Positions 17,488 to 27,817 of a stretch of 64,000 nucleotides of DNA are shown here, one piece after another. Both the position numbers and the translations under genes were made by a program. The DNA comes from Flavobacterium okayamense (lineage in GTDB: Bacteria > Bacteroidota > Bacteroidia > Flavobacteriales > Flavobacteriaceae), in assembly GCF_019702945.1 (NCBI RefSeq), contig NZ_AP024749.1, forward strand, positions 186,001 to 250,000. The letters are read 5' to 3'. The notes beneath the pieces are model-generated. The model made no database searches, was not told the origin of the DNA, and saw only the letters and a program-made list of their open reading frames with translations. Every line of letters begins with the position of its first letter. Positions within the stretch are counted from its first letter, which is position 1.

Positions 17488-18630
17488 ATGTTAAGAATAC
17501 TAATTTTCCTTATTTCAATATCTGTATTTTCTCAGACACAATTTACTGGTAAAATAATTGACATCAAAAGTAAACAACCCTTACTAGGTGCATCAATTTA
17601 CATACCAAATACAAGTATTGGTACCTCAACTGATATTGACGGAAAATTTGTTTTAGTGGTACCCACAAGAAATATTGAAATTGTAGTAAGTTATGTAGGC
17701 TACAATACAATTAATGTTAAACTTGACTTAACAGAAATTAACGAGTTTAGCAAAACAATTATGATGAGAGAAAAAAGCAATCAACTCGATGAAGTAATTG
17801 TTACTAAACAAAAAATAGATGAAGAATGGAGAAGACAATTTAAGTTATTCAAATATCATTTTATTGGGAACAGTACTGTTGCAGAAAAAGTTGAGATTTT
17901 GAATAAAGAAGACATTTTTTTTACAGAAGTAAAAGATTCCACAAGTTATTCATTACAAGCCCAGTCAAACAAACCCTTAATTATTATTAATAAAAAACTT
18001 GGATATAAACTGACTTATGATTTAATAGAGTTTAGTGTTTTTAGATCAAATGACAATCCTCAAAAATCTGTTTACTATGGCTACTCATTTTTTGAAGACA
18101 TTATTGAAAAGGAGAAGTTAAATTATAAAAAAACAATTATTAACAGACAAAAAGCTTATAATGGCTCTTTAAACCATTTTATAAAATCTGTTTATCAAAA
18201 TAAAATTATTGAAAATGGTTTTGTTGTAAATGAATTTATATTAAAAGAAAACCCAGAATATCCTTCTAAAGAAAGGCTTACCTATCTTAAAAATGAAGCA
18301 AAAAAAACGGGTAATTATGATAGTCTAAGAAATTTACCTAATAAATTTCAAAAAATAATTGGACGTGAATATTCAAAACAAAATTTTGTAATTGGCCTCG
18401 ATGAAAAGCAGTATTTGAGTTTTAAAAATTCAATACAGATTAAATACAATGAAGAATGCGATAAAAATTACAAAACTAAATTTGATTTTCAGTTGTCTTA
18501 TATATCATTAACTGAAAAAGTAGAGATTTTTGAAAATGGTAATTTTTACAATCCTTTACATATGATTATTTACGATTATATGTCATGGAAGAAAATGGGA
18601 GATGCCCTTCCATATGATTATGAGCCATAA
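17488..18630 (+). CDS. CarboxypepD_reg-like domain secreted protein
   Basis: 380 residues with signal peptide (MLRILIFLISISVFSQ). Residues about 18-100 form a carboxypeptidase-regulatory-like beta-sandwich (GKIIDIKSKQPLLGASIY, STDIDGKFVL, VSYVGYNT), followed by LDEVIVTK, the linker that precedes a plug in TonB receptors. Here no plug or barrel follows; instead there is a mixed 280-residue domain with SLQAQSNKPLIIINKKLGY, found in other Bacteroidota proteins of this type, function unknown. It precedes the macroglobulin gene on the same strand with a 62-base gap, so co-expression is likely. Confidence 0.8.
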   Translation: MLRILIFLISISVFSQTQFTGKIIDIKSKQPLLGASIYIPNTSIGTSTDIDGKFVLVVPTRNIEIVVSYVGYNTINVKLDLTEINEFSKTIMMREKSNQLDEVIVTKQKIDEEWRRQFKLFKYHFIGNSTVAEKVEILNKEDIFFTEVKDSTSYSLQAQSNKPLIIINKKLGYKLTYDLIEFSVFRSNDNPQKSVYYGYSFFEDIIEKEKLNYKKTIINRQKAYNGSLNHFIKSVYQNKIIENGFVVNEFILKENPEYPSKERLTYLKNEAKKTGNYDSLRNLPNKFQKIIGREYSKQNFVIGLDEKQYLSFKNSIQIKYNEECDKNYKTKFDFQLSYISLTEKVEIFENGNFYNPLHMIIYDYMSWKKMGDALPYDYEP

Positions 18631-18692: not shown

Positions 18693-21600
18693 ATGAAAAA
18701 AATAATTACACTTTTATTCATCTTCCTAAGCACATTTGTTTTCTCACAAAAAGTTGAAAAAGAGTGGCAAAAAGTTTATCAATTTGAAAATGATGGAAAA
18801 TTTTCTTCAGCACAAAAAGAATTGATTAAAATTAAAAAAAAAGCAAATAGGAAAAAATACGATAAAGAATTAATAAAGTGTTTTCTTTATGAATCCAAAA
18901 TTCAAATGTTTAACAATGAAAACGCTAAACAAATAATAATTAAAAACTTAAAAACCGAAATCGGAAAACAATCACCAGTTCCTAAATCTGTACTTCATTA
19001 TATTTTAGCTACCATTTTAAAAGATTACAAAAGAACAAACCAAAATAAAATCTCTCAACGTTCTAAAAACATTCAAAAAAATGATTTAGATTTTACTACT
19101 TGGAGTTTATCAGATTTTGAAAATGAAATCCAGATAAACTATGAGGAAATTTTTAAGTACAAAATTGAACTTTCAAAAGTATCAATTGCTGATTGGAAAT
19201 CTATATTTGATATACCCTCTTACATTGATGGAAAAGAATATAGCTTATATGATTTTTTCTATGAAAAAAATCTCGAAAATTTAAAATCTAATGTTAAGTT
19301 ATGGAATTTAAATTCAGCGAATTATCTAACAAATTTAGAACAATTATCTATACAAAAATCTGAAAACTTCATTAACACAAATCTTGATTTTATATTAGAT
19401 CAAGATTTAAAAAAAGTAATTCAAAATATTCGAGATTATGAAAAATTTTATCTTACAAAGGATATTCAAAAATTAGAATTTTCATATTTTAAAAGAATAG
19501 AATATATATTATCAATTACCGAATCAAATCAGCTTCCAAAAGAATTAATTGAACTTGAAAAAAATACAAAAAACGAAACATTAAAGCAACTTGTAAGACT
19601 ATACAAAGCTGAAAATTTAATTCAAATTGGAACTCAAAAAAAAGAAGCTAATTATCAAAAAGAGGCTATTAAAATTCTTGATACTATACTAAAATCGAGA
19701 GTGCATCCAAATATTTTAGCTGATGCAGAAAGAAAAAAACTTCTTTTAACAAATAAATCGCTATCACTTGATTATAATGACCAGATATATTCTAATCAAA
19801 ACCATAGAGCTTTTGTTAGGTTCAAAAATATTGATACTGTTAAAATTAATTATTATAGACTTCCTGAAAAAAATGATTTAGAACTCAATAATTATTTTTA
19901 CAATTATTCCAAAAAAAAAGATTCTTTAGTTCTTGATTATATTAAAAAGCATAAACCTATAAACTCTTCAATTATAAAATTACCAAATCAGTTTGATTAT
20001 TTTGAACATACTACTGAAATAATTTTAGACAACCTTGAAACTGGAAATTATTTAATCTTTTTGGAAACTAACAATAGTATTCCTAATGAAAATGCATATA
20101 CATATGACACAATAAATGTAACCGATTTTTTTGTTGTTGAAGATGAAGATAATTACAACAACAATCTTTATATTTTAAATAGAAAAACTGGTCAACCCAT
20201 TGAAAACACTAAAATTATAAGTGAACAACAAACAGTTAGAACTGACAGTAATGGAAAGGCTAGTTTGAAAAAACTTAATTATGAAAAAGATAAAAAATAT
20301 AAAAATGAAATATTAATTTATAAAGATAACGACTCTATATATTATGAATATAATCGAGGTTTTTATTACAATTTTGAAGATGAAGATGATATAATTTTCG
20401 AATCTAAAGTACAACTTTTTACTGATAGAGGAATTTACAGACCTGGTCAAAAAATATTTTTCAAAGGAATTGTTGTACAAAATAAAAATTACAAAAAAAG
20501 TGTTGTCCCTTTTGTTACTGTTAAAGTTATAATAGAAGATGCTCAAGGAGAAGAATTAAAAGAATTTGAAATTCAAACAAATGAACTTGGTTCCTTTAAT
20601 TCAGAATTTCAAATCCCCAAAAACATCTTAACTGGTCAATTCAGAATTTACATTGCAGAGCCGGATAATTATGAAAATGATAAAGATTATTATGATTTAA
20701 AAGAAGATGAGCATTCATTTTGGGACAATGTAGAGTTTGATGAATGGCAAAGTAAAATTTATTTTCAAGTTGAAGACTATAAGAGACCAACTTTTGAAGT
20801 TAGTTTCGATAAAATTAAAGAAAATTATGCAATAGGTGATACTTTAAAAATTACAGGTAACGCAAAAGCACTTGCAGGAAATAATCTTACAAATGCAATA
20901 GTAAAATATAATATTTCAAAAAACACTTTATTAACAAATGGTTATGTTCCATATGAACCTAATTATATAGTTGAAGAAACAAACACTGATGAAAAAGGCA
21001 ATTTTAAAATAAGTTTCCCTGCAATTCAAAATAATATATCAATCGATAGTATTATCGCTCAAGATTATATTATTGATTTAGAAATCACTGATACCAATGG
21101 TGAAACAAAGAGCGCTAAACAATATGTTCATGTAAACAAACATATGCTTGATTTAAATTTAGATATTAAAAATAAACTTTATAAAGAAGATGTATTAACT
21201 GCAAATATTAATACTACAACAAAAAACAATTATCCAATACCTACTAAAGTTGAAATAGAAATCTATCATGATGATAGAAAAAATTTCAAAAAAGAACGAG
21301 TTTGCCAAATTCCAGAAATTCAAACTATTAGTAAAGAACAATTCAGTCAATTATTTCCTTATGAGCCTTATGATGAGAATGATTATAAAGAAAATCTAAT
21401 TTTGGTTAAATCTACTTCCCTAAATACTGCAATTAACTCAAATTTAGATTTATCATTTTTAAAAGAACTCAAAAATGGTAATTATAAAATAATAGCCAAA
21501 GCTAAAGACATTAAAGAAAATGAATTTAAAGTAGAAAAAATCTTTAATCTAGATTCTAAAATCAATCCAAATTTAGAAACTAAACTTTTTAGTTTTAAAT

Positions 21601-24600
21601 ACATCCCAAAAGAAAACAGCGACATCATAGAAATTGAATTCACTTCTGCCATTAAAGACTTATGGATTACAACCCGTTTTTTTGATGGTCAATCTAACAC
21701 CTTCAATACTAGAATTGATCAACTAATAAATGGAAAAAAGATAATTCAAATAAAAAAACCAACAAAAGTAATCTATGATTTAGATTTTAAATTTCAATTT
21801 TCTTCTGTTTGGGAGAATCAGACACATGATGAACAATTTAGTTTAAAAACAAAAGAAACAGAAAAAGATTTACTAATAAATATAGAAAGTTTAAAGAACA
21901 AAATTGAACCTGGTAGTAATGAAAATTGGTCTTTTAAAATAAATAACACCAAATTAGAAGCAGAAGTATTAGCATCAATGTATGACACTTCAATTGATCA
22001 ATTTAAAAATTCAAATTGGGAAAAAATATATTTAGAAAACAATCAATATCCAAATTTTCCTCGTTTTTATGATTATAAAAAAGAATTAAAACACTTATTA
22101 TTAAATAGTTTTAAAAATTACAGCCTAATTTTTAAATATCAAGACATTGACCCTATAGATATTAAATGGTTTGGTTTTAACTTCAATCACTTAAATTATA
22201 ATCAATATAAGAAAGCTTATGACTTCTACGTCCCTAAAGGATATAGAAAAATAACTGGAGTTGTTTCTGATGATTTAGGTCCTGTTGCTGGTGCTAGTGT
22301 AATTGTAAAGGGAACAAGTAGAGGAGTAACTACAGATTTTGATGGTAACTTTGTAATAGCCGCAAAACCAAATGAAACACTAGAAGTTTCTTATGTAGGA
22401 AATACACAAGAAGTTAAAATTGGAAAAAATGATATTTATAATGTTACTTTAACTTCAACACAATTAGAAGAGGTTGTTGTGAGTGCTCTTGGCATAAAAC
22501 GATATGTAGATGAATCAACATCTTCATACACAGTTATTAAATCAAACGAAATAAATCAATTTGGAAATCAAAATATAGTACAAGCATTAAAAGGAAAAGT
22601 TTCTGGCTTGACAATTACAACAAGTTCTAACAGTATCAACTCTTCAACAAGAATTGTTTTGAGAGGAAATAGGTCTATATCAGGAAATAATGACGCATTG
22701 GTTGTGATTGATGGTGAAATTTCATCTGCAGATGAACTTCAAAAACTAAGCGCAGATAGTATTGATGAAGTTCAAGTTTTAAAAGGTGCACAAGGAGCCG
22801 CCTTATATGGAGAACAAGGAGTTAACGGAGTTATTATTGTTACTACAAAAAAAGCCTTAAAAGAATTATCCAATTTAAAGACAAGAACAAATTTTAATGA
22901 AACTGCATTCTTTTATCCAACCCTAAAAACAGATAAAGAAGGAAAAATTTCTTTTAATTTTACAACTCCTGAATCATTAACCAAATGGAAATTACGATTA
23001 TTTGCTCATAATAAAAATTACGAAACAGGTTTTTTAGAATCATCAATCATTTCACAAAAAGAAGTAATGGTTCAAACCAATATGCCAAGATTTTTTAGAG
23101 AAAATGACAATATAAAAATATCGGCAAAAATAGTAAACATGACTGATGAAACTAAATCGGGGGTTGCGATGCTAATGCTATTTAATGCAGAAAATAATGA
23201 AACAATAGATTCAATTGCATTAAACAATGATAATCTTAAAAATTTTAGCTGCAAACCAAAAGAAAGTGTTCCTGTAAATTGGACAATTTCAATCCCTAAA
23301 AACATAAGTGGTTTACAATATAAAATAGTAGCAAAATCTAGCAATTTCTCAGATGGTGAAGAGAATATTATTCCGGTTTTAAGCAATAAGATTCTTGTTA
23401 CAGAAAGTAGACCTATTTGGCTAAAAGGAAATGCTAAAAAAGAAATTGTTTTTGAAAAACTTTTAAATAACTCATCTACAAGTTTAGAGAATCAAAAATA
23501 CACACTTGAATATTCTTCAAATCCTCTTTGGATTGTTTTACAATCACTACCCTATTTAATGGAATTTGAACACGAATGTGCTGAACAAACTTTTGCTAGA
23601 TATTATGCTAATTTAATTGCTGGAGAAATTATTGAAGATAATGAGAAAATAAACTCCGTATTAGAATCGTGGAAAAATAATGATGTAAGCTCTAAATTTA
23701 ATTTCAATGAAGACTTAAAGTCTATAGCGTTAAATGAAACTCCATGGCTTTTTGATGTAGAAAGTGATGAAGAAAAAAATATGAAATTAGCTCTTTTACT
23801 GGATTTAAATAATCTTGAAAAAAACCAAGAAAACACTTTAAACAAATTATTAGAAAAACAAAATATAAATGGTTCTTTTTCATGGTTTAAAGGAGGAAAT
23901 GAAAATATTTTTATTACTCAACATATTTTAGCTGGGTTTGGACACTTATCACAAATGTTCCCACATAAAAAACAAGAGTTTAAAAAAATAACTTATAAAA
24001 CAGTAGTATACTTAGATAATAAATTCATTTCTGATAATTCTATAAATAAAAAATATTCAAATAATTATTTGAATTTACATTTTTGGTACGCCAGAAGTTT
24101 TTATTTAGAAGATTTTCCTATAAATGAAAATTTAAAAATAATTTTTAATAAACAATTTGAAAGCTTTAAAAAAGAGTGGCTAACTTACTCTTTATATCAA
24201 AAAGGTTTAGCCGCTATATGTTTGCAAAGAATAGGCGAAAAAGAATGGGCTAAAAAAATAATTACACACCTTAAAGAAACTGCTTCTGTTAATGAAGAAA
24301 AAGGCATGTATTGGCTTGAAAATGATCATGGTTACTATTGGTATCAATCACCAATTGAAACACAAGCAATTTTAATTGAAGCTTTTGATGAAATTGAAAA
24401 AGATAAAAAATACATAGAAGAATTAAAAACTTGGCTGTTATTTAAAAAACAAGCAAATCATTGGCCAACTACTAAATCAACATCAGAAGCGATTTACGCA
24501 TTATTATTGCAAGGTGAAGATTGGTTATCTGAAAAAGAAAATGTGAAATTTGTAATTGGCAATTCAAAAATTTCATCAAAAAAAATTACTGAAAGCGAAA

Positions 24601-25181
24601 AACAAAATGAAACTGGTTACACTAAAATCAATTGGAATAAAGAGGACATTAGTAACGACATGGGTAAAGTTTCAATAAACAATAAAGGTGAAGTTCCTGT
24701 TTTTGGTGGTATTTATTGGCAATATTTTGAAAATTTAGAAAATGTTAAAGCTGACAGTACTTTAGTTATTAATATTAATAAGAAGCTTTTCAAAAAAATA
24801 AAAACACCTGAAGGAAATAACTTAGTTGAAATAACAAATAACAATATTAAAACTGGAGATTTAATTACAATAAAATTAACCGTAAGGGTAAAAGAAAATC
24901 TTGAATTTGTTCATTTAAAAGATTCTCGAGCTTCTTGTTTTGAACCTATTGATGTTATTTCAGAATATCAATATGAAGATGGAGCATATTTCTATAAAAG
25001 TACTAGAGATACTGCAACTCACTTTTTCTTCGATGATTTAAGTAAAGGAACTTATATTTTAGAATATGATGTAAGAATAACTAACTTAGGTAGTTTTACA
25101 GATGGCATAGCAACAATACAAAGTATGTATGCTCCTGAATTTAACAGCCACTCTTCTGCTTCTAAGATTACTATCGAATAA
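18693..25181 (+). CDS. Alpha-2-macroglobulin family protein with inserted CarboxypepD_reg and TonB plug domains
   Basis: 2162 residues with a non-lipoprotein signal peptide. The MG2 domain starts near residue 570 (LFTDRGIYRPGQKIFFKG). Residues about 1187-1270 are a CarboxypepD_reg domain (ITGVVSDDLGPVAGASVIV, TDFDGNF) and about 1280-1390 a SusC/RagA-type plug (VQALKGKVSGLTI, QGAALYGEQGVNGVIIVTT). The macroglobulin resumes at RTNFNETAFFYPTLKTD, the domain that in known macroglobulins follows the bait region. The thioester motif C1629-A-E-Q is intact, with the helical thioester domain reaching about residue 1925. The family traps proteases; the plug insert is unusual. No pbpC neighbour. It has a strong terminator downstream. 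Confidence 0.92.
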   Translation: MKKIITLLFIFLSTFVFSQKVEKEWQKVYQFENDGKFSSAQKELIKIKKKANRKKYDKELIKCFLYESKIQMFNNENAKQIIIKNLKTEIGKQSPVPKSVLHYILATILKDYKRTNQNKISQRSKNIQKNDLDFTTWSLSDFENEIQINYEEIFKYKIELSKVSIADWKSIFDIPSYIDGKEYSLYDFFYEKNLENLKSNVKLWNLNSANYLTNLEQLSIQKSENFINTNLDFILDQDLKKVIQNIRDYEKFYLTKDIQKLEFSYFKRIEYILSITESNQLPKELIELEKNTKNETLKQLVRLYKAENLIQIGTQKKEANYQKEAIKILDTILKSRVHPNILADAERKKLLLTNKSLSLDYNDQIYSNQNHRAFVRFKNIDTVKINYYRLPEKNDLELNNYFYNYSKKKDSLVLDYIKKHKPINSSIIKLPNQFDYFEHTTEIILDNLETGNYLIFLETNNSIPNENAYTYDTINVTDFFVVEDEDNYNNNLYILNRKTGQPIENTKIISEQQTVRTDSNGKASLKKLNYEKDKKYKNEILIYKDNDSIYYEYNRGFYYNFEDEDDIIFESKVQLFTDRGIYRPGQKIFFKGIVVQNKNYKKSVVPFVTVKVIIEDAQGEELKEFEIQTNELGSFNSEFQIPKNILTGQFRIYIAEPDNYENDKDYYDLKEDEHSFWDNVEFDEWQSKIYFQVEDYKRPTFEVSFDKIKENYAIGDTLKITGNAKALAGNNLTNAIVKYNISKNTLLTNGYVPYEPNYIVEETNTDEKGNFKISFPAIQNNISIDSIIAQDYIIDLEITDTNGETKSAKQYVHVNKHMLDLNLDIKNKLYKEDVLTANINTTTKNNYPIPTKVEIEIYHDDRKNFKKERVCQIPEIQTISKEQFSQLFPYEPYDENDYKENLILVKSTSLNTAINSNLDLSFLKELKNGNYKIIAKAKDIKENEFKVEKIFNLDSKINPNLETKLFSFKYIPKENSDIIEIEFTSAIKDLWITTRFFDGQSNTFNTRIDQLINGKKIIQIKKPTKVIYDLDFKFQFSSVWENQTHDEQFSLKTKETEKDLLINIESLKNKIEPGSNENWSFKINNTKLEAEVLASMYDTSIDQFKNSNWEKIYLENNQYPNFPRFYDYKKELKHLLLNSFKNYSLIFKYQDIDPIDIKWFGFNFNHLNYNQYKKAYDFYVPKGYRKITGVVSDDLGPVAGASVIVKGTSRGVTTDFDGNFVIAAKPNETLEVSYVGNTQEVKIGKNDIYNVTLTSTQLEEVVVSALGIKRYVDESTSSYTVIKSNEINQFGNQNIVQALKGKVSGLTITTSSNSINSSTRIVLRGNRSISGNNDALVVIDGEISSADELQKLSADSIDEVQVLKGAQGAALYGEQGVNGVIIVTTKKALKELSNLKTRTNFNETAFFYPTLKTDKEGKISFNFTTPESLTKWKLRLFAHNKNYETGFLESSIISQKEVMVQTNMPRFFRENDNIKISAKIVNMTDETKSGVAMLMLFNAENNETIDSIALNNDNLKNFSCKPKESVPVNWTISIPKNISGLQYKIVAKSSNFSDGEENIIPVLSNKILVTESRPIWLKGNAKKEIVFEKLLNNSSTSLENQKYTLEYSSNPLWIVLQSLPYLMEFEHECAEQTFARYYANLIAGEIIEDNEKINSVLESWKNNDVSSKFNFNEDLKSIALNETPWLFDVESDEEKNMKLALLLDLNNLEKNQENTLNKLLEKQNINGSFSWFKGGNENIFITQHILAGFGHLSQMFPHKKQEFKKITYKTVVYLDNKFISDNSINKKYSNNYLNLHFWYARSFYLEDFPINENLKIIFNKQFESFKKEWLTYSLYQKGLAAICLQRIGEKEWAKKIITHLKETASVNEEKGMYWLENDHGYYWYQSPIETQAILIEAFDEIEKDKKYIEELKTWLLFKKQANHWPTTKSTSEAIYALLLQGEDWLSEKENVKFVIGNSKISSKKITESEKQNETGYTKINWNKEDISNDMGKVSINNKGEVPVFGGIYWQYFENLENVKADSTLVININKKLFKKIKTPEGNNLVEITNNNIKTGDLITIKLTVRVKENLEFVHLKDSRASCFEPIDVISEYQYEDGAYFYKSTRDTATHFFFDDLSKGTYILEYDVRITNLGSFTDGIATIQSMYAPEFNSHSSASKITIE

Positions 25182-25576: not shown

Positions 25577-27817
25577 TTATTTAATTTTAAATCGTAAACC
25601 AGCATAATACATTTGACCAAATAATGGTCCGTATACTAAACTACTATCAAAATATGTTCCAAATGGGTTATCTGCTCCAATTATAGCATTACTTTGTTTG
25701 TAATTTGTAATATTTTCTCCACCAACATATACTTCAAAGGTACTCGAAAATGTTCTTGTTATTTGAGCATTTAATGTTCCAAACGATGACGAATAATCAT
25801 CTAATTGGTATTGTGGTAAATTTGTTGATGTATCTGGCAAACGTTGCTTTCCTAACCAATTATATGTAGCATCAAACTTCCATTGTTGGCCTTTTTCTTT
25901 AATATGTGTTTCGAAAGCTGCATTTGCAAAGAATCGATGTTTCGCTTGCAAAGGTCTTTCTAATTTACCCACTAAATAATCACTTTGCACATCATAATAT
26001 TTATAGGCCGAACGCAAGGTAAAGTGCATAATAGGTGTTACACTAAATTCTGCTTGAAAACTATTCGCATAACTTTTCCCATCTAAGTTATGAAAAACTA
26101 CTTGTTGCGGACTTACATCTAAATCAACAACAGCCTGATTTTGAAAATCGGTTCTATAATAATCCAAAACAATTTCAGATTCTGCTCCAAATATTTTGAA
26201 TTTTTGAATAAAATTTAAACCATAATTCCAAGCAATTTCTGGATTTAAACCATATAACTTTCCGTCATTATTAAGAATTGAAAACTGACGATTTGATGCA
26301 AAAAGTTGTTGGTTTTCAGCAAAAATATTAGCTGCACGTTTACCTCTTCCAGCTGAAAGTCTTAAAACAGCTTCTTTCCATGGATTGTAACGAATATGCA
26401 AACGAGGTGTAACAAATGTTCCTAATCGATTATGATTATCTACACGAACTCCAGCTACAACACTTAAATTATCTAAGTTATCATAAGTATATTCAAAAAA
26501 TGCACCTACAGAGTTATCAATTCTAGAAAAATCTTCCGCAAAGTTTACGGCAATAAATTCATTATAATCGTCGTAAGAAACGTTTAAACCAGTTGCAAAT
26601 TTATTCTTGGTATTATTAATAATAGAATTATAAATTAAATTGGAATACCAACTTTTTTGATGAATATTATATTGGTTTAAACCAAAATACGAATCTTGTT
26701 TGTGCGATTGAAATGAGTTTTGAAGTCCAAAACTTTTGTAAGGTTCATCTGGAAAAACATATCCTGTTTTATTAGAAATTTCTATTTTTTCAGTATTTAC
26801 TTCACTTCCCCATGCATTTATAGTAAATTTATCTTTTTCGGGATCAAAATCTACTTGTCCTGCTTGTTTTTCGTCACGCATATATCGAACGTTTAAAAAG
26901 CTTACCCAACCTCTTTCTGCATCGGTATATTGCCAACGATTTAAAATATTAATTTGTTTCCCAACTGGATTATCTAAAAATCCATCATCGTTCATATCAT
27001 TCTTAAATTGGCGTGTATTTCCATGCACAAATAATGAAGAGCTCAACTTATCGGAATACTTTTGATTGAAATGAGTATTCAATTCAAAACGTCCATCTTG
27101 AGAACCATAAGCATTTAAAAAGAACGGAATATCGTTAGCTGGTTTTAATAATTCGTAATTGATTTGTCCCGAAATACTTTCGTAACCATTAATTACACTT
27201 CCTGCTCCTTTTGTAATTTGAATACTTTCTACCCAAGTTCCCGGAATATATGATAACCCGTAAGCTTGTGAAGCACCACGAACAGATGGAATATTTTCTT
27301 CTGCAATTAAAATGTATGGACTCGTTAAACCTAACATTTTAATTTGACGATTACCTGTTACAGCATCAGAGAAATTAACATCGATGGAAGGATTTGTACT
27401 AAAGCTTTCCGAAAGATTACAGCAAGCAGCTTTTAACAACTCTTTGCTTCCCATTTTTTGAACATTGGTTGCTTGAATTAAAGAATGTTCTGTACTTTTT
27501 TGAGTTTTAGTTACCGTAACTTCATTCAAATTCGTAACTTCTTCTAAAACAATAGTAATAAAATCAGAATTTAAAATTTCTACTTTTTGAGTTTTAAACC
27601 CTATATAGCTCACTAATAAACTATTAGTTTCTTCAGTTTTAATAATACTAAATTGTCCATCTACATCAGTTGATGCTCCTATGGATGCATTTTGCCAAAA
27701 AACATTGGCGCCTAATAAAGGTTGATTATTGGTGTCTACTACTTTTCCTTTTATAGTTTCTTGTGCATTTCCAAAAAAACCAAATATGAAAAGTAATATA
27801 CTTAGTGTATATTTCAT
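25577..27817 (-). CDS. TonB-dependent receptor, probably metal-related
   Basis: 746 residues. Signal peptide, then a CarboxypepD_reg domain (IKGKVVDTNNQPLLGANVFW) and LNEVTVTK, a plug domain (about 110-230) containing LLKAACCNLSESF with a Cys-Cys pair, and a 22-strand-type barrel ending LRFKIK. It lacks the SusC signature and is of the siderophore/metal receptor type. The Cys pair in the plug, together with a Cys-rich exported protein upstream and an HMA protein downstream, suggests a metal such as copper as cargo. The start codon lies six bases behind a perfect 15-bp inverted repeat. Confidence 0.9.
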   Translation of the reverse strand: MKYTLSILLFIFGFFGNAQETIKGKVVDTNNQPLLGANVFWQNASIGASTDVDGQFSIIKTEETNSLLVSYIGFKTQKVEILNSDFITIVLEEVTNLNEVTVTKTQKSTEHSLIQATNVQKMGSKELLKAACCNLSESFSTNPSIDVNFSDAVTGNRQIKMLGLTSPYILIAEENIPSVRGASQAYGLSYIPGTWVESIQITKGAGSVINGYESISGQINYELLKPANDIPFFLNAYGSQDGRFELNTHFNQKYSDKLSSSLFVHGNTRQFKNDMNDDGFLDNPVGKQINILNRWQYTDAERGWVSFLNVRYMRDEKQAGQVDFDPEKDKFTINAWGSEVNTEKIEISNKTGYVFPDEPYKSFGLQNSFQSHKQDSYFGLNQYNIHQKSWYSNLIYNSIINNTKNKFATGLNVSYDDYNEFIAVNFAEDFSRIDNSVGAFFEYTYDNLDNLSVVAGVRVDNHNRLGTFVTPRLHIRYNPWKEAVLRLSAGRGKRAANIFAENQQLFASNRQFSILNNDGKLYGLNPEIAWNYGLNFIQKFKIFGAESEIVLDYYRTDFQNQAVVDLDVSPQQVVFHNLDGKSYANSFQAEFSVTPIMHFTLRSAYKYYDVQSDYLVGKLERPLQAKHRFFANAAFETHIKEKGQQWKFDATYNWLGKQRLPDTSTNLPQYQLDDYSSSFGTLNAQITRTFSSTFEVYVGGENITNYKQSNAIIGADNPFGTYFDSSLVYGPLFGQMYYAGLRFKIK

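Follow-up and report, generated by a model that had tools for sequence, protein, structure and literature searches.

A SusC-type plug module at the bait position of Bacteroidota alpha-2-macroglobulins, captured more than once

A bait region carrying a plug module is a widespread variant of Bacteroidota alpha-2-macroglobulins (A2Ms), in which the bait has been derived from SusC-type importers more than once. Here, we describe one such A2M together with its relatives; it is encoded in the window, i.e., the whole 64,000-nucleotide stretch of Flavobacterium okayamense DNA analyzed (G000:C1:186001-250000, from a genome of 2.78 Mb). The module lies at the bait position and is specific to that place, was captured on more than one occasion, resembles the importer resident in the same genome, and evolves under constraint. 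The initial annotation, which had noticed a SusC/RagA-like plug in this protein, was right and understated the case. We infer, with a little less than an even chance in our judgment, that the insert is a decoy bait by which the trap displays the periplasmic face of SusC, an idea that is bold and unproven, and testable. We know of no established answer to what bacterial A2Ms defend against, and if the bait copies a resident nutrient importer, the bait sequence would name the threatened target, which could be tested with one purified protein. No published report of a SusC plug in an A2M bait was found in the PMC literature (titles and abstract starts; most subscription journals lie outside it).

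The features of the A2M gene are collected in Table 1. MG2, A2M, and bMG10 follow in the expected A2M order, CxEQ is present (as CAEQ, intact at residue 1629 as initially reported), and the insert holds every element of the SusC N-terminal module, namely the N-terminal extension (NTE), TonB box, and plug. The SusC/RagA model TIGR04056 covers A2M residues 1185-1402 with its positions 1-220 of 981 at 191 bits, which is under the full-length cut-off of 368, as expected for a module that lacks the barrel, and the signature model TIGR04057 also scored below its cut-off. Pfam and TIGR04056 thus bear out the earlier domain calls (CarboxypepD_reg and plug), and the claim that no barrel follows the plug agrees with the six Pfam families matched in the A2M open reading frame, none of which is a TonB barrel family, the A2M domain coming directly after the plug. 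A chimera produced by misassembly or frameshift was ruled out, as the frame is open over 2162 aa and relatives of similar length and domains occur on many contigs; the nearest named relatives among the protein matches listed are Flavobacterium. By eye, the N terminus carries a Sec-like signal peptide without a lipobox, whereas a second A2M of the same genome (L078, C1:400738), classed as lacking SusC pieces, has a lipobox-like VVSC there. The protein is an exported, probably periplasmic A2M whose bait loop carries a periplasm-facing SusC N-terminal module. E. coli ECAM (YfhM) is anchored in the inner membrane, a difference from the window A2M with its lack of a lipobox.

Table 1. Features of the plug-bearing A2M gene (positions in the window; residues of the encoded protein)
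Feature	Position	Strand	Basis
Alpha-2-macroglobulin (A2M) with SusC-type insert	18693..25181	+	ORF, 2162 aa
MG2, residues 574-659	20412..20669	+	Pfam 64.3 bits
CarboxypepD_reg-like domain (CarbopepD_reg_2) = SusC N-terminal extension (NTE), residues 1187-1263	22251..22481	+	Pfam 51.9 bits
TonB-box segment LEEVVVSALGIKR, residues 1258-1270	22464..22502	+	12/13 residues identical to own-genome SusC L160
TonB-dependent receptor Plug, residues 1274-1380	22512..22832	+	Pfam 52.4 bits, cut-off 23.9
SusC/RagA signature stretch, residues 1357-1386	22761..22850	+	TIGR04057 40.2 bits, below cut-off 46.2
A2M domain after bait region, residues 1404-1488	22902..23156	+	Pfam 64.7 bits
Thioester motif CAEQ, residues 1629-1632	23577..23588	+	
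Bacterial MG10 (bMG10), residues 2031-2149	24783..25139	+	Pfam 103.2 bits

The window A2M shares its fold family, CxEQ motif, and aligned bait place with ECAM/YfhM and with SaA2M of Salmonella. When a Bacteroidota A2M profile was aligned with YfhM by hhalign (probability 100; E 9.8e-59 global, 2.6e-38 local), the entire insert fell opposite YfhM 922-969. In the published structure of cleaved YfhM, bait residues Arg923-Leu942 are disordered, while Phe947-Asn963 are ordered once cut (PMC4498604), so that the aligned range coincides with the published bait and the earlier mapping of the insert to the bait position holds. This mapping rests on the larger profile, since with a smaller alignment (A1) the match was limited to a portion of the next domain (probability 27). 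The baits differ in kind: that of ECAM and SaA2M is described as short and largely disordered (PMC4498604), whereas the window A2M has a SusC module of ~205 residues in this place.

The module is also confined to the bait. A plug HMM built from nine SusCs matched 51 of 181 bait segments at >=10 bits and none of 1659 control segments of equal length that tile the remainder of these proteins, nor any of 1810 shuffled bait segments, ruling out a domain call by chance; at a looser 5 bits, 3/1659 control segments and 5/1810 shuffles also match. An HMM that includes the CarboxypepD_reg-like domain (CTLD) gave 60/181 baits, 1/1659 segments elsewhere, and 0/1810 shuffles at >=10 bits. Bait segments were motif-anchored in 126/181 A2Ms and taken as the 160 residues before the A2M domain in the other 55, for which parts of long inserts may therefore fall outside. 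Short motifs were compared with the remainder of the proteins (326,680 residues): the LYG..NG signature was found in 28 baits, VDG in 35, and GKVAG in 20 with no match in the remainder, the TonB-box motif in 15 baits against one match, and the less specific IRG motif in 26 against seven. Further, the plug match ended at model position 127-130, 10-35 residues ahead of the A2M domain, in all 45 of the 45 plug A2Ms.

Of 7991 candidates scored in a protein search with residues 1100-1500, 2247 reached E <= 0.001, with Plug and A2M models both present in 104 of the best 120 (manual count); the search admits proteins down to ~1190 residues (~1110 for the L227 query below), and lower-ranked matches may include long SusCs. 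The same plug-in-bait architecture occurs in a second A2M clade that includes Hymenobacter, where query L227 (100% match to Hymenobacter aquaticus) yielded 801 proteins at E <= 0.001, most of the best 120 carrying Plug and A2M models and the named ones being mostly Hymenobacter. The bMG10 family was present in 86/198 phylum, 84/120 genus, and 149/197 class genomes. We classed 181 A2Ms (180 retrieved loci and the window's own) from the 400 residues preceding the A2M domain, which put numbers on the occurrence of the plug across Bacteroidota A2Ms, as the initial annotation had proposed: 45 had a plug (30 with CTLD and plug, 15 with plug only), 17 had other SusC pieces (8 CTLD only, 5 CTLD plus plug fragment, 4 plug fragment), and 119 had none, in a non-random sample whose fractions are not frequencies. 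The sample comprised 80 loci from the phylum search (mostly top-scoring), 40 from the genus search, and 60 from the class search, the last 20 of these picked deliberately for lower scores or unusually long frames, plus the window A2M, with 30 short loci (L121-L150) left out. Many such A2Ms bear the JGI label “TonB-dependent SusC/RagA subfamily outer membrane receptor” because the bait holds a SusC module, a misannotation of these traps that is worth correcting. Two plug A2M genes, L096 (G283:C9) and L098 (G243:C3), have short frames (990 and 1016 aa) and are apparently interrupted.

The inserts do not share a single origin. When 88 modules taken from A2Ms, SusCs, and VWA proteins were placed in one tree (204 columns), grouping the 29 long A2M inserts as one clade was rejected (lnL difference 156.5, AU p 6e-5), as was grouping the 24 Flavobacterium-clade inserts (AU p 3e-4), which rules out for the sampled inserts one ancestral insertion followed by decay. 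Plug-bearing baits fall in several separate clades of an A2M tree built without the bait. The window insert belongs to SusC subtype LKGAQGAALYGEQG, and those of L099 and L100, the nearest relatives of the window A2M in the A2M tree (sisterhood support 79), belong to another, in plug trees that have few columns and many open forks. Within the subtype (38 rows), the L106 insert pairs with its own-genome SusC L277 (98/94), the L101 insert falls in a six-row group with its own-genome SusC L268 (96/80), and the window insert groups with SusCs P0124 and P0133 (96/92), its own-genome SusC L160 joining them one level further out, in a group with weak support (84/76). A single clade was rejected for the window insert with L101 (p 3e-4), and the corresponding tests gave p 0.0016 with L106, 0.005 with both, and 0.05 for L101 with L106, values that are lenient because the groups were picked after seeing an earlier tree.

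Inserts also tend to resemble the importers of their own genome. Among 13 A2M inserts from 12 genomes with 34 SusCs, the best match was an own-genome SusC in 7 and another genome's in 6, and shuffling of genome labels gave p ~5e-5 for summed identity and p 1.5e-4 for the best-match count with either model, although match ranks are blurred because several of the 12 genomes are closely related. The comparison covers genomes whose listed over-cut-off SusCs were all retrieved (in some, part of the first-look SusC candidates was scored), and one of its entries, L119, has identities of 0.60 vs 0.44, the second value after merging two match rows. It left out G305 (fragmented assembly) and G068, G118, and G126 (3 of many SusCs retrieved each), and the A2Ms of these last three genomes matched another genome's SusC best (L080 tied to two decimals with the NTE model). 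The window genome appears to hold one SusC over the cut-off, L160, the second G000 locus being the A2M itself; the insert shares with such transporters the NTE, TonB box, and plug, with 63.7% identity to L160 over 204 residues, and differs in having no beta barrel. In some lineages, then, the bait derives from a SusC like the resident one, and several relatives seem to have acquired the module in separate events, each from the importers of its own species, suggesting that the trap may pose as the importer.

Such a pattern could also arise by passive capture, in which an insert-tolerant bait loop receives abundant mobile SusC modules by illegitimate recombination or gene conversion with resident SusCs and gains no SusC-specific function. 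Supply would be ample, each of 12 Flavobacterium genomes having 17 to 40 matches to TIGR04056, many of which cover CTLD or plug parts only; bait segments are highly variable in length and content, and VWA proteins carry a fused copy of the module as well. If the loop took up whatever was at hand, other domains might be expected in it, but beyond A2M/MG families, Pfam matches in the 119 plug-less baits were limited to carboxypeptidase-regulatory families (3 and 2 members) and single matches to four unrelated families, i.e., no other accessory family occurred in more than one bait. The DNA identity of the window insert to its own SusC (64%) is also low for ongoing gene conversion. With the selection and motif results below, which count against it as well, we regard capture without function as unlikely.

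In four related A2M pairs, one of them near saturation (dS 1.5-2.0), dN/dS was 0.19-0.23 for the insert, 0.15-0.19 for MG1-6, 0.06-0.11 for the C-terminal part, and 0.16-0.45 for the linker before the insert; in a fifth pair, the regions outside the insert were saturated. The end branch of the window insert was 0.51 against a tree median of 0.1 (~five times), so the insert is constrained, yet evolving faster than SusCs. Purifying selection speaks against passive capture, and the initial annotation's own alternative of a random, non-conserved insertion does not describe a module that is common, located in the bait, selectively maintained, and captured multiple times. The dN/dS of the linker exceeded that of the insert in three of the four pairs, as might be expected if the insert were a folded spacer and the real cutting took place in the ~90-residue linker before it. 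This would leave repeated SusC capture and the resemblance to the resident SusC unexplained, and we consider it very improbable.

The content of the bait varies while its place stays fixed. Several A2Ms have roughly the C-terminal half of the plug only (e.g., L022, L026, L091, L095, L111, and L115), others lack a plug domain and retain a TonB box (L020, L027, L029, L038, and L040), and in L027, L038, and L072 a GKVAGV-type piece precedes the TonB box, opposite to the order found in SusCs. This mixture of full, half, plug-less, and permuted modules at one place fits a bait for which any SusC-like cut site will do. The TonB-box pattern occurred in 10 of 17 fragment-type baits against a shuffle mean of 0.37, a count that is partly circular, as the definition of the fragment classes rests in part on a match spanning the TonB box. 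A fairer motif test is offered by the 119 baits classed as having no SusC pieces, in which LxEVVV occurred in 5 against 0.26 in shuffles, again arguing against capture without function, and GKVAG in 4 against 0.17; three other patterns (3, 5, and 4 against 1.03, 1.08, and 1.38) stayed within the shuffled maximum. At G311:C1 276700-290500, two adjoining plug A2M genes have different baits, L110 with roughly half a plug plus a TonB-box piece and L117 with the full module.

Variation extends to the thioester. CxEQ follows the bait in 40/45 plug A2Ms, while L018, L088, L092, and L094 have SAEQ instead and no such motif was found in L086. Judged by these motifs, the thioester was probably lost in the four SAEQ proteins while the bait module was retained; together with L086, they indicate that covalent capture is not universal.

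The initial annotation had offered two functional ideas, engagement of SusC/D-type receptors and an unusual bait. The first can be developed into docking, in which the TonB box and plug would tether the A2M to TonB or SusC complexes, for instance in trans beneath a pore that has lost its plug, and so guard the points where proteases could enter; the fit would require a match to the resident SusC. Several observations are consistent with docking. The TonB-box region lies inside the plug match in 29/45 plug A2Ms, and three captures retained 12/13, 12/13, and 10/13 of the TonB-box residues (the least retained stretch in the same captures, from VDG to the signature, kept 7, 6, and 6 of 19). An insert dN/dS of ~0.2 suggests a folded, working domain, the same module occurs in YfbK-type VWA proteins, once behind an anti-sigma-like N terminus (by eye), and a lipobox-like motif is found in just 1/45 plug A2Ms. 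In addition, a two-hybrid assay reported for the Myxococcus transporter Oar found binding between TonB1 and the N-terminal part of the protein (NTE and plug) (PMC6434023). However, the TonB-box part is outside the plug match in 16/45, and half plugs or plug-less TonB boxes, as found in many relatives, would not dock as a whole plug does and argue against the need for a receptor-engaging one. Docking also does not require that the place always be the bait. We think it improbable that the module serves to dock the trap, and of the functional ideas initially proposed, receptor engagement is less likely and the unusual bait fits best.

Under the decoy-bait reading, any protease able to cleave the resident SusC at its TonB box or plug, e.g., one that enters through the importer or acts on it, would cleave the bait insert too. 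The A2M would then close on the protease and bind it via the CAEQ thioester, and recapture of the module time and again would keep the decoy in step with the importers present. A more novel form of this reading is a self-updating decoy, its bait repeatedly overwritten with the cell's own SusC plug and TonB box, so that an importer-attacking protease would reveal itself and be trapped; we see this as a real but rather doubtful possibility. If true, bacteria would possess a counterpart of decoy (“integrated target”) immune receptors, and a new class of attackers that cut TonB-dependent importers would be implied. In SusC Bt1763, the TonB box (VDEVVV) is flexible in solution beside an NTE that is a folded Ig-like domain of no known function (PMC7782687), and such flexibility makes the TonB box a plausible cut site. 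Contact between a protease and a plug is not far-fetched either, as Oar is reported to be needed for export of the protease PopC across the outer membrane (PMC6434023); Oar has the NTE, TonB box, and plug in common with the insert and differs in being a true barrel transporter without an A2M part.

Several points weigh against the decoy. We found no protease with SusC plugs or these baits as its substrate, and a folded NTE and plug may resist cleavage more than a disordered bait. Moreover, 6/13 inserts are not closest to their own SusC, covalent capture is not always kept, and in the 119 baits classed as having no SusC pieces only two of five motif patterns exceed shuffles. The module also occurs where there is no bait, in YfbK-type VWA proteins, which counts against the decoy and indicates uses or a spread of the module's own.

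These VWA proteins share with the A2M a barrel-less CTLD and plug of the same SusC subtype, carried on the N-terminal side and not in a bait, and barrel-less SusC plugs appear as reusable modules. One is encoded in the same genome (L180 55-2241 (-), G000:C1:1538794-1542435), with an N-terminal CTLD and plug, no barrel, and Flavobacterium relatives. Another VWA/YfbK-like protein of 893 aa (L305, ~G216:C1:325564-326193) appears by eye to start with an anti-sigma-like stretch, continue with a membrane helix, and then carry the SusC NTE, TonB box, and plug. M56 proteins of the window genome were considered as further plug carriers and set aside: two were found, and in one (L241, ~G000:C1:2394122-2394502), an M56 peptidase, the C-terminal part resembles half a plug by eye only.

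The A2M gene is flanked directly by genes for a CTLD protein and a TonB receptor, neither of them SusD-like by Pfam (13 of 49 window open reading frames scanned). The former, a 380-aa CarboxypepD_reg-like gene upstream (window 17488-18630, +), was rejected as a conserved operon partner, since among the matches listed, in 19 genomes, it adjoins an A2M only in G264. The latter (window 25577-27817, -) is a TonB-dependent receptor of 746 aa with CTLD, plug, and barrel, whose plug scores only 33 bits in Pfam.
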